Shown here: one piece after another, positions 20,950 through 23,749 of the stretch | Position numbering within the stretch: position 1 is the first letter of the stretch | Layout: each line of letters begins with the position of its first letter | Assembly: GCF_025340265.1 (NCBI RefSeq) | Contig: NZ_CP022707.1 | Span: forward strand, 1,550,501-1,614,500 | DNA length: 64,000 nt | From: Novosphingobium sp. 9 | GTDB taxonomy: Bacteria > Pseudomonadota > Alphaproteobacteria > Sphingomonadales > Sphingomonadaceae | Direction: 5' to 3' | Translations under genes and position numbers: made by a program | The notes under the pieces: generated by a model | Seen by the model: only the letters and a program-made list of their open reading frames with translations | Told to the model about the DNA's origin: nothing | Databases searched by the model: none

Positions 20950-21708
20950 ATGCACACAATGTCCAACGATATTCTCGATAATCAGGGGCGCGGTGAAGCG
21001 TCCTGGCGCTGGCCGACGGTTCATCCCGAAGGTCGCAAGTTCGGTGCCATCGCCGGTGCGGTCGCGCTGGTGGTATGGATCATCTGGGGGCCGTGGTTTG
21101 GCTGGCCGCTGGCCGTGCTCACCTATTGCGTCCTGGCCTTCTTCCGCGATCCGGTGCGCGTCACGCCGCAGGATGATGCAGCGATCGTCGCGCCCGCCGA
21201 TGGCCTCGTCACGCTGATCCAGAAGGTCGCGCCCCCGCGCGAGATGACCATGGACGATGGCAGCGGCACGCGTCCGCTCGATGCCACGCCGGTCACGCGC
21301 GTCTCGATCTTCATGAGCGTGTTCGATGTTCACATCAACCGCACGCCGATCGGCGGCACCGTGCGCCGCGTCGTCTACATTCCCGGCAAGTTCGTGAACG
21401 CGGATCTCGACAAGGCGAGCGAGGAGAACGAGCGTCAGCATATCCTCGTCGAGCGCAGCGATGGCGTGCGGATCTGCTTCACGCAGATTGCAGGCCTTGT
21501 CGCGCGCCGCATCGTGCCGTTCGTAAAGCCGGGCGATATAGTCGCTGCCGGTCAGCGTGTCGGTCTGATCCGCTTCGGCAGCCGCGTCGACGTCTATCTG
21601 CCCGCAGGCACCGAGCCTCTGGTGTTGATGGGCCAGAAGATCGTCGCGGGCGAAACCGTGCTGGGGCGTATCGGTACGGGCAATGTGATTGAAGGCATCG
21701 CGCAGTGA
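20950..21708 (+). CDS. psd: Phosphatidylserine decarboxylase proenzyme
   Basis: A 252-residue enzyme that makes phosphatidylethanolamine from phosphatidylserine. N-terminal membrane segments ([20 protein letters not shown]) precede the catalytic part. [20 protein letters not shown] contains the conserved histidine region, and [11 protein letters not shown] holds the Gly-Ser site of self-cleavage that yields the pyruvoyl group. It is of the short bacterial type. pssA follows directly, its start overlapping the psd stop. Confidence 0.94.
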
Positions 21709-22604
21709 TGGATCGCGGGGAGAGCGGTCAGGCGGCGGATGGCTTCGAGGACGATATGCTCGACGATGCCGCTGACATGTACGATGCCCGAGGCCGCTGG
21801 CCGCGTCGGCGTCTTGCTGCGGGCCTGTCGGTTCGGGCGATCGTGCCCAACGCGATCACGGCGGCAGCGCTCTGCTCGGGGTTGACCGGTATCCGCTTTG
21901 CGATTGCCGGAGATTTCGAAAAGTCGGTGCAGGCGGTGATCGTCGCGGCACTGCTTGACGGGATCGACGGGCGCGCCGCGCGCCTGCTCAAGGCCGAGAC
22001 CCGCTTTGGTGCGGAACTGGATAGCCTTGCCGATGCGATCTCGTTCGGTGTGGCGCCTGCGCTGATCGTCTATCTGTGGACGCTCAATGCGCTGCCGGGG
22101 CTGGGCTGGATCGCGGCGCTCGCCTTTGCCATTTGCTGTGTCCTGCGTCTGGCGCGCTTCAATGCGCGGCTCGACATGCTGGACCAGCCGCACAAGTCGG
22201 CAGGCTTCCTGACCGGCGTTCCGGCACCGCTGGGCGCTGGTCTCGCGTTCCTGCCGATGTACCTGTGGATCGGCACCAGCCGTCCCGAGTTCGCCAATCC
22301 TGTGGTGGTCAGCCTGTGGATGCTGATCAATGCTTTCCTGATGATTTCGAACCTGCCAACGCTCAGCTGGTCGCGTCTCAGCCCGCCGCGCGGTGTGCGT
22401 ATCGGACTGATTGCGCTGGTTGGCCTGACCGTCTCGGCACTGCTGATCGAGCCCTGGCTGACGCTGGTAGGCCTGACGGTCTTCTACCTCGCGCTGCTGC
22501 CCTTGGGCCTGATCACCTATCTGCGCGTCAAGCGGCAAGGTTTTCCGGCGAAAGCCACTCCAGCCGGGGCGAGCGCAGCGTTGCCGGACGACGGCGCCCA
22601 CTGA
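21708..22604 (+). CDS. pssA: CDP-diacylglycerol-serine O-phosphatidyltransferase
   Basis: A 298-residue membrane enzyme making phosphatidylserine from CDP-diacylglycerol and serine, the substrate for the neighbouring psd. The CDP-alcohol phosphotransferase motif DG(x)2AR(x)8G(x)3D(x)3D is complete, beginning DGRAARLLKAETRFG. About eight hydrophobic helices are seen. The ATG overlaps the psd stop (TGATG); a GTG one codon earlier is also possible. The last 77 bases overlap a gene on the opposite strand. Confidence 0.94.
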   Translation: MDRGESGQAADGFEDDMLDDAADMYDARGRWPRRRLAAGLSVRAIVPNAITAAALCSGLTGIRFAIAGDFEKSVQAVIVAALLDGIDGRAARLLKAETRFGAELDSLADAISFGVAPALIVYLWTLNALPGLGWIAALAFAICCVLRLARFNARLDMLDQPHKSAGFLTGVPAPLGAGLAFLPMYLWIGTSRPEFANPVVVSLWMLINAFLMISNLPTLSWSRLSPPRGVRIGLIALVGLTVSALLIEPWLTLVGLTVFYLALLPLGLITYLRVKRQGFPAKATPAGASAALPDDGAH

Positions 22605-22809
22605 TCCCGCGCGGGCGCGGGGCCTGTGCCGGGATCGGCATGGCCACGCGCTCGACGCGCTTCCAGGTGACGGTCAGTTCCCCGGAGCAATGCACGATGC
22701 GGCTGCCGAGGCCGAGTGCCCTGCGGCCATGGGTCAACCATGCCAGAGCGATGACGAGCCCCGAGAAGAGGGCTGCGAGCGTGAAGAGGCTGGCGGCGAA
22801 CGCAGTCAT
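22528..22809 (-). CDS. Small membrane protein behind three LexA boxes
   Basis: A 93-residue protein of no family I recognise. It has one N-terminal membrane helix (about residues 4-25, FAASLFTLAALFSGLVIALAW) and then a basic, proline- and arginine-rich tail (for example RPRGISGRRRPATLRSP). AAAGGA lies upstream of the ATG at 22809; a longer frame from 22842 is less likely. The promoter is overlapped by three LexA-type boxes (22880-22958), so the gene should be induced by DNA damage. Its 3' end runs antisense into pssA. Size and layout resemble SOS-induced division inhibitors such as Caulobacter SidA, but no sequence similarity is claimed. Confidence 0.65.
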   Translation of the reverse strand: MTAFAASLFTLAALFSGLVIALAWLTHGRRALGLGSRIVHCSGELTVTWKRVERVAMPIPAQAPRPRGISGRRRPATLRSPRLEWLSPENLAA

Positions 22810-22879
22810 GACCTGATCCTTTGCCTTCGGGCTCCATCGCATTGTCCAATGCGGTCTGCCACTGGGTGATTGGTACTTG

Positions 22880-22894
22880 GTTCTCTGAATGTTC
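22880..22894. promoter_or_regulatory. LexA box 1
   Basis: GTTCTCTGAATGTTC, an exact match to the alphaproteobacterial GTTC-N7-GTTC consensus. It lies just downstream of the predicted minus-strand start point. Confidence 0.75.
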
Positions 22895-22904
22895 CGATGT
22901 GCTG

Positions 22905-22933
22905 TTGTTCGTTTTTTGTTCCGTCCTTGTCAA
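22905..22933 (-). promoter_or_regulatory. SOS promoter of the small membrane-protein gene
   Basis: On the minus strand TTGACA (22933-22928), 17 bases, then GAACAA (22910-22905). LexA box 2 covers the -10 and spacer. Confidence 0.6.
22907..22921. promoter_or_regulatory. LexA box 2
   Basis: GTTCGTTTTTTGTTC, exact GTTC-N7-GTTC, over the -10 element of the minus-strand promoter. Confidence 0.8.
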
Positions 22934-22943
22934 GCGAAATGCG

Positions 22944-22958
22944 GAACAAGGGTGGAAC
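22944..22958. promoter_or_regulatory. LexA box 3
   Basis: GAACAAGGGTGGAAC, the consensus in the opposite direction, just upstream of the -35 element. Confidence 0.75.
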
Positions 22959-23009: not shown

Positions 23010-23336
23010 TTACGCGGCATCATCCTGACGCTGGCGGGCCTGATGCAGGCGATGCGTGACGGGCTTGGGAATCGCCTTGTGATGGCGCCCCGAGGGATTC
23101 GCGCCAGCCGGTTTGTCTGCTCGACCGGATACACGAATCCTCTGGCGCCGCGTATTCGCCTGACGATCGCGCGCGGTATCGACCCAGTGCGTTTCGAGAT
23201 GAAGCGGCTCCTGCCGCCTGAGCCATTCGCGGTACAGGGCGTGGATGGCCGACCCGTTGGCAAGCATCGTCCGGCGTACCAAGGCGATGCAGATCACGGC
23301 AGCGGCGGCGAACAGGATCGGGGCGAGGGCGGTCAT
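23010..23336 (-). CDS. Small membrane protein, possible paralogue of the SOS-linked gene
   Basis: A 108-residue protein of unknown function with one N-terminal membrane helix (APILFAAAAVICIALV, about residues 5-20) and a long basic tail rich in arginine, histidine and glutamine. It begins MTALA, close to MTAFA of the gene at 22809, with the same layout of helix and basic tail. AAAGGA precedes the ATG at 23336. No LexA box is seen upstream of it. A short LYREWLRRQEPLHLETHW segment after the helix may be a folded part. Confidence 0.55.
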   Translation of the reverse strand: MTALAPILFAAAAVICIALVRRTMLANGSAIHALYREWLRRQEPLHLETHWVDTARDRQANTRRQRIRVSGRADKPAGANPSGRHHKAIPKPVTHRLHQARQRQDDAA

Positions 23337-23749
23337 CGAGGTTCCTTTCCTGCAATCGCAGTCGTGATGCCCCCGAATGGCCACTTCCGGCGACCATTCC
23401 CCCTTTCCATCTCGTCCGACCCGGAGGGCGGACTGTCTTTGCGATCCGTTAACTATTGCGTGTTTTCCACAGGGGAAAGCCGCAGGAATGGCCGCGTTCC
23501 CGACTTGTCGCGATTTGCAGGGCATCTCGCGGCGGCAGGTGCGGTGGCTGCGGTGAATTGGTGCTGGCGTTGACGGGCTTTTGCGCGTAAGGGGCCCGCG
23601 TTCGATCCCTTGGCGCCGAATTGTCGGTACGCGAATCGGGTCGGCACTCCACATGGGATGCACACATACCGGTGCCGCAGCGGACCAGGCCCTTCGGGCT
23701 ACCGCACGGTTCCAGCATCCCAGAGGTTGAACCGGAAAAGGAAGTATTT
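23337..23749. other. rpsB upstream region
   Basis: 413 bases with no convincing gene. Its right end probably forms the rpsB leader, with a long-range stem at 23655-23721. I see no clear promoter hexamers. Confidence 0.6.
23655..23721 (+). promoter_or_regulatory. Candidate structured leader of rpsB
   Basis: GGGATGC (23655-23661) is a perfect complement of GCATCCC (23715-23721). Between them lies a small GGCCC-TTC-GGGCT hairpin. The stem ends 28 bases before the rpsB ATG, so it could serve S2 feedback control. Confidence 0.4.

Follow-up and report, generated by a model that had tools for sequence, protein, structure and literature searches.

A small membrane protein gene with conserved LexA boxes and an antisense-encoded Ala-Ala end beside pssA in Sphingomonadaceae

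Introduction

SOS division inhibitors differ among bacterial groups. YneA of Bacillus and SosA of Staphylococcus are SOS-induced division inhibitors that are cleared by proteases, and both are Gram-positive proteins with extracytoplasmic C-terminal parts. SulA of E. coli, which belongs to family PF03846, inhibits FtsZ. Peptides of the TisB/DinQ type in E. coli also combine a single membrane helix with SOS control, and they are shorter than the protein described here and subject to antisense RNA control. In the Alphaproteobacteria, SidA and DidA of Caulobacter crescentus are small membrane proteins that inhibit division (PMC4211646). SidA, a LexA-controlled inner-membrane protein of 29 residues, blocks division through FtsW; DidA, a small transmembrane protein, is induced by DNA damage through DriD and independently of the SOS response (PMC4211646). 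The alphaproteobacterial LexA motif is GTTC-N7-GTTC (PMC7987155, PMC12700426), and some 97% of the SOS promoters of Caulobacter have just one box (PMC12700426). In a search of the literature, mostly outside subscription papers, we found no SOS division inhibitor described in sphingomonads.

Here, we analyse a locus of Novosphingobium sp. 9 in a window of 64 kb, the whole stretch of DNA under study, from a genome of 4.39 Mb in two contigs. The original prediction, made from this DNA alone, was that LexA boxes control a small membrane protein and that this protein is a candidate SOS effector, possibly a division inhibitor. Like SidA, the protein is alphaproteobacterial, has LexA boxes at its promoter and is predicted to be a small inner-membrane protein. 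Unlike SidA, it is 93 residues long (52-117 in the family), has a long basic tail and, in most members, ends in Ala-Ala. Whereas Caulobacter SOS promoters mostly carry one box, this one carries three. It resembles DidA as a candidate small, damage-induced transmembrane division inhibitor, but has the LexA boxes expected of SOS control. In contrast to the extracytoplasmic C-terminal parts of YneA and SosA, its tail is predicted to be cytoplasmic and its end resembles an ssrA degron. The Ala-Ala end, an antisense overlap with pssA, a DnaA-box-like element in relatives and a tandem paralogue are features beyond those noted in the original prediction.

Results and Discussion

Three LexA boxes on one promoter

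The features of the gene and its promoter are as follows.

22528..22809, minus strand: gene for a 93-residue protein with one N-terminal membrane helix, a basic tail and the C-terminus ...ENLAA
22817..22822, minus strand: probable ribosome-binding site AAAGGA, from sequence
22880..22894, minus (gene) strand: putative LexA box GAACATTCAGAGAAC, downstream of the expected transcription start
22905..22933, minus strand: promoter, with TTGACA at 22933-22928, a 17-base spacer and GAACAA at 22910-22905
22907..22921, minus (gene) strand: putative LexA box GAACAAAAAACGAAC, between -35 and -10 and overlapping the -10
22944..22958, minus (gene) strand: putative third LexA box, GTTCCACCCTTGTTC on the gene strand, upstream of the -35 and opposite in orientation to the other two

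Three exact GTTC-N7-GTTC elements, one of them reversed, had been predicted within 79 bases, and all are present: the motif reads on the plus strand at 22880-22894 and 22907-22921 and on the minus strand at 22944-22958. The minus-strand promoter (TTGACA, 17 bases, GAACAA) is also as described, with boxes over the -10, immediately downstream of the start point and immediately above the -35. GAACAA taken alone is a poor -10 hexamer; TTGAC is conserved in homologues. Beyond these three, the 64-kb window contains no exact GTTC-N7-GTTC. The prediction further held that three exact copies in 80 bases were very unlikely by chance. A total of three per window is not rare in itself, being reached in 17 of 100 shuffles. 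Because the box count of the window alone is not significant, the case rests on the clustering of all three boxes within 79 bases on one promoter and on the conservation of two of the three positions in relatives, and neither of these is a product of chance. Between promoter and gene, positions 22838-22853 of the leader form a perfect 6-bp inverted repeat with a 4-base loop, in a stretch where relatives have a DnaA-box-like element.

The same motif is found upstream of three known SOS genes of this genome. At lexA (TIGR00498), GTTCTCACATTGTTC begins 57 bases beyond the upstream end of the matched region; at recA (PF00154), GTTCACCCCTTGTTC begins 35 bases before the first ATG of the recA frame, which contains a second exact site inside; and at uvrA, identified by NCBIfam, GTTCCAGATTTGTTC lies just ahead of the probable start. 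Single sites mean little, because the genome holds 139 exact GTTC-N7-GTTC sites compared with 74 for the reversed control pattern. The gene studied here has three exact copies on its promoter and boxes that are conserved in relatives. Together, the fixed place of the boxes across the family and the motif upstream of lexA, recA and uvrA support the LexA control that had been predicted, and we regard it as almost certain that the 22528..22809 gene is under LexA control.

The SOS genes themselves show some irregularities in this assembly. recA was matched as two pieces in different frames (contig C2:1332411-1333195; L099, L100), which reflects a frameshift or an assembly error. uvrA changes frame at about 2266-2332 of L053 (C1:1230665-1230731), with repeat-like sequence at the junction, and a peptide similar to the junction also occurs in an ORF at L053 526-792; insertion of a repeat element or an error of assembly may explain this. 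The two-frame recA and uvrA are probably, though not certainly, sequencing errors, and because each is read in two frames it is uncertain whether the SOS system encoded in this particular assembly is functional. A second LexA-like match lies at contig C2:928173-928700 (L097) and scores 61.8 bits, below the family cut-off.

The protein was predicted to have 93 residues, one helix and a basic tail, and this holds. Its hydrophobic core spans residues 4-22, the net charge after the core is +9, and homologue alignments identify 22809 as the conserved start. AlphaFold2 gives a helix over residues 2-40 followed by a tail of falling confidence (mean pLDDT 72). The positive-inside rule would place the tail in the cytoplasm. 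By sequence, it is thus a small single-pass membrane protein under putative LexA control, as SidA is. The absence of a recognised family also holds: Pfam and NCBIfam yielded zero matches to this protein and only single weak matches to other members, PADLOC found nothing, and PHROGs returned weak matches only. PDB sequences gave no useful match, and tblastn against a plasmid collection found no relative of this protein. In the literature searched, again mostly outside subscription papers, we found no description of the gene.

Conservation beside pssA in Novosphingobium

The gene converges with a neighbour on the opposite strand.

21705..22604, plus strand: pssA, CDP-alcohol phosphatidyltransferase family, convergent (Pfam PF01066, PF08009; synteny)
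22528..22604: antisense 3'-3' overlap of the gene with pssA, 77 bases

Relatives beside pssA were found by single-sequence search, and a profile search matched 73 of 195 genomes of the genus. We read 65 genus loci. Fifty-nine adjoin pssA and represent 51 genomes (eight were taken twice) and 49 distinct proteins; the other six (L010-L014 and L016; E 6e-4 to 0.0098), which are neither beside pssA nor associated with a box, were dropped as chance matches elsewhere. We left L153 and L166 uncounted, as these have a box and an Ala-Ala end on a piece of sequence from which pssA is absent, and also L167, which has no box. Among the named homologues, 17 of 19 are from Novosphingobium, and the others come from one Sphingomonas sp. 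and one Porphyrobacter MAG.

At least one exact box lies within 200 nt of the start in 59/59 pssA-side genus loci, and two or more boxes precede 41 of the 49 distinct proteins. In these 41, the boxes are spaced by 27 (21 cases), 28 (14), 26 (2), 29 (1) or 17+11 (3). In 48 of the 49 distinct homologues, TTGAC starts 10-12 bases ahead of the first box, and the spacers are also conserved, with GAACAAAAAGAGAAC and GAACATTGATAGAAC as common forms. The conserved pair corresponds to the forward boxes at 22880 and 22907, while none of the other genus loci read showed a counterpart of the third box (22944) in the same place and orientation. Conservation of the boxes across sphingomonads had been proposed as a check on the original prediction, and two of the three positions are conserved. 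All 49 distinct proteins end in Ala-Ala, in a set that was gathered by box and not by end. In a divergent alignment of 30 genus members, only Phe9 and the last two Ala are invariant.

The same box and end across the family

How far does the gene extend beyond the genus? A profile search matched only 37 of 397 genomes in the family, and we therefore turned to a sample based on pssA, comprising 59 genomes of different genera, 57 of them with pssA, in which the opposite strand downstream of pssA was scanned without use of the protein. An exact GAAC-N7-GAAC was present at this place in 52/57 genomes. In the same 57, the control patterns were found in 3 (CAAG-N7-CAAG), 3 (spacer of 6), 1 (spacer of 8), 0 (AGAC-N7-AGAC) and 14 (ACAG-N7-ACAG), and the box in its other orientation in 3. 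Both the box and a small one-helix ORF were found in 51/57, the ORF having been chosen by its hydrophobic start and start codon, not by its end. Each of the 51 has a single hydrophobic segment (the hydrophobic start was preselected, its singleness was not). The ORFs encode 52-117 residues (median 79), the charge after the helix is positive in 50/51 (mean +6.8, compared with about 0 before it), and only one box accompanies 41 of them. Ala-Ala ends 44/51 ORFs compared with 74/945 frames of 45 or more codons from these regions; the genes themselves are counted in this background. The remaining seven end in FAV, ALA, VHA, VRR, AVA, IRA and YAR, and some of these may have been wrongly chosen. Where sequence similarity is too low to recognise the gene, its place, its regulation and its final two residues do so, and about 50 genera provide a ready test set.

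The exceptions in the family vary in kind. Five genomes have no exact box on that strand in the stretch scanned (L195, L204, L212, L230 and L232), and a sixth, L246, has the box but no chosen ORF. L195, L204 and L230 have a one-mismatch box together with an Ala-Ala ORF, one-mismatch boxes alone being weak evidence, and L204 carries, in addition, an exact box in the opposite orientation. A contig end truncates L212. At L232, a more distant exact box with a small ORF was not convincing. In Sphingomonas parapaucimobilis, WP_347091504.1 (L265 1624-2103, minus strand) is annotated as a hypothetical protein with a start upstream of the LexA box; the true start is likely codon 82 of the annotated CDS, in which the box falls at about codon 18. 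Passages of a Sphingopyxis transcriptome paper (PMC6472365) in which SOS genes are listed make no mention of this gene, which counts against the role proposed below.

Outside the family, we sampled 29 loci or slices from other families of the order, 16 with pssA and 13 not judgeable, and the box was absent at 15 of the 16 loci with pssA. Twelve loci in the order sample (L199-L210) belong to the same family; two are within the 57 and ten were uncounted. At one locus from another family, L216, two LexA boxes lie about 1.25 kb from pssA, together with a small membrane ORF that does not overlap pssA. This ORF may be an independent or a moved relative.

Could the protein be a toxin? An SOS-induced membrane toxin that acts by reducing the proton motive force or by slowing growth in general, as TisB and DinQ do in E. 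coli, would share most of the features described so far. A small, basic, single-helix protein under SOS control with several boxes fits such a role, as does rapid drift of the sequence around an invariant Phe9 and final Ala-Ala, and DinQ is a toxic single-transmembrane SOS peptide (PMC3567139). At 52-117 residues with a long basic tail, however, the family is longer than such peptides. dinQ is under antisense RNA control, whereas the only Rfam matches in the window are four tRNAs, and thus no known antitoxin RNA. A selected degron, for which we argue below, also suits a reversible checkpoint better than a toxin. We therefore consider a toxin unlikely.

The Ala-Ala end is encoded antisense to pssA

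The stop codon and the two Ala codons of the gene sit opposite Val-Lys-Arg-Gln of PssA. This arrangement recurs: in all 49 loci measured, out of 51, the gene overlaps the convergent pssA by 17-173 bases and its stop codon lies inside pssA, in the same phase in 47. The facing PssA motif is mostly [VI]-[KR]-[RQ] and comes just after the last PssA membrane helix. Of the elements of the ssrA tag, its terminal Ala-Ala matters most to ClpXP, and on folded GFP the three residues 'laa' are insufficient while five are enough (PMC7652416). The genome's own tmRNA tag, ANDNEALALAA, likewise ends in Ala-Ala, and the protein studied here has the C-terminal Ala-Ala of an ssrA-type ClpXP substrate.

An Ala-Ala end that arises as a by-product of the conserved PssA tail was at first a serious objection, and the Arg codons of pssA argue against it. 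Where an Arg of PssA faces the penultimate Ala, its codon is CGG in 35/38 cases, CGA in 2, CGT in 1 and CGC in 0. Elsewhere in the same pssA genes, CGC is the commonest Arg codon (238/529, with CGG at 171/529). Two codons further on, CGC accounts for 24/37 and CGG for 8/37; at the codon in between, which is less constrained, CGG accounts for 6/16. The CGG bias has a binomial P of about 2e-14 and a Fisher P of 2e-10 against the codon two further on, and both values are optimistic because the genomes are related. This bias indicates that the antisense-encoded Ala is probably under selection, and it is an unusual kind of evidence for selection on a C-terminal degron-like dipeptide. We think it fairly probable that the Ala-Ala end is a degron, likely for ClpXP.

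The reading frame as a whole also behaves as a gene. Between close homologues, differences at codon positions 1/2/3 number 9/2/23 and 11/5/30, and even the weakest of nine homologue pairs, L118-L120, gives 10/17/32. Given this third-position excess, and given that CGC never faces the penultimate Ala despite its frequency in the rest of pssA, it is scarcely credible that the ORF is spurious or that its Ala-Ala end merely mirrors the PssA tail, even though its last codons do lie antisense to a conserved basic motif.

The overlap raises a different possibility, namely that the gene acts on its neighbour. After damage, a transcript running antisense into the end of pssA, or binding of the protein to PssA, could lower phospholipid synthesis and slow envelope growth. 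The overlap in every locus measured, its nearly constant phase and the retention of the place beside pssA across genera are what this explanation would lead one to expect. Yet the protein sequence itself appears to be selected, as seen in the third-position excess, the conserved N-terminal part and the Ala codon bias, and the block may simply never have been rearranged. In most loci with a long enough piece, the order is psd-pssA, the reversed small gene and rpsB (rpsB was not found in the 6.2 kb of L133). We consider action on the neighbour very unlikely.

A DnaA-box-like element in relatives

The DnaA box is TT(A/T)TNCACA, and LexA and DnaA both repress uvrB, recN and dinJ in E. coli (PMC6015884). 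In relatives of the gene described here, the LexA boxes are followed by a 9-mer that fits this consensus, TTWTCCACA, which in the listed cases lies 33-95 bases ahead of the start. It is found in 37/49 distinct genus leaders and 13/51 family leaders, compared with permuted-word control means of 0.02 and largest values of 3 (genus) and 2 (family). A LexA box followed after 8-38 bases by TTWTCCACA occurs in 20/60 genus genomes, and 26 of the 27 places are at the pssA-side locus, with one elsewhere; the reversed control of the combination gave two matches, in 2 genomes. The E. coli examples concern other genes, and the combination here is seen in relatives, not in the window, where the gene's own leader has no TTWTNCACA and so lacks the mark of a DnaA-controlled promoter. 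In this genome, TTWTCCACA has only 23 sites, compared with 16 for the reversed control. We lean slightly towards DnaA input at this promoter in relatives. If the element is real, the gene would tie a damage checkpoint to replication initiation in those lineages.

A proposed role in division control

We propose that the gene encodes a family-wide, LexA-repressed, short-lived small membrane effector. Its regulation is well supported by sequence. The likeliest role is that of a division inhibitor, which we put at about even chances; the anatomy of the protein would fit it, as would the failure to find the SulA family in 21 genomes. From the boxes, promoter, conservation, gene position, single helix and Ala-preserving codon bias, we infer a series of events in which LexA binding, topology, degradation, target and effect on division are all putative. 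In undamaged cells, LexA would occupy two or three boxes that cover the promoter and the start region, and the gene would be kept tightly off. DNA damage would lead to LexA cleavage and a burst of the one-helix inner-membrane protein, with its basic tail facing the cytoplasm. The helix would most likely bind a membrane component of the division machinery, and septation would be held. Once synthesis stopped, ClpXP or a similar protease could remove the protein by way of Ala-Ala as an ssrA-like degron, and division would resume.

Any likeness to SulA is one of possible role only. As predicted, the protein differs from SulA in sequence: PF03846 does not match it, and this family had no match in 21 genomes (this one and 20 related), with E. 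coli as positive control. Nor did we find any known division inhibitor to which its sequence or fold could be linked; the structural model is one helix and a poorly predicted tail. An auxiliary envelope or repair factor that aids survival after damage, for example by anchoring or modulating another SOS protein while division goes unblocked, is equally compatible with the regulatory evidence. A partner gene is absent from the unit, though, and double boxes would suggest that leaky expression is harmful, so we regard such a factor as quite unlikely. For the division inhibitor, a more specific version is that the family shares a previously unrecognised checkpoint protein, retained at a single locus in most genera, whose sequence drifts while its degron codons are kept within the antisense pssA, and which is gated by LexA and, in many lineages, by DnaA. 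Such gating would make the gene respond to damage plus the state of replication initiation. We offer this fuller version only tentatively.

A tandem paralogue

A second, related gene lies upstream in the window.

23010..23336, minus strand: tandem paralogue, 108 aa, ending ...DDAA (profile E=2.2e-6)

No LexA box was found in the 420 bases upstream of this paralogue. Several genus loci likewise have a paralogue upstream of the SOS gene, and among the 19 distinct paralogues read, none has an exact box in the 250 bases upstream and 13 end in Ala-Ala. In the window, TTTTCCACA, one of the 23 TTWTCCACA sites of this genome, is found on the plus strand at 23463-23471, about 127 bases upstream of the paralogue.
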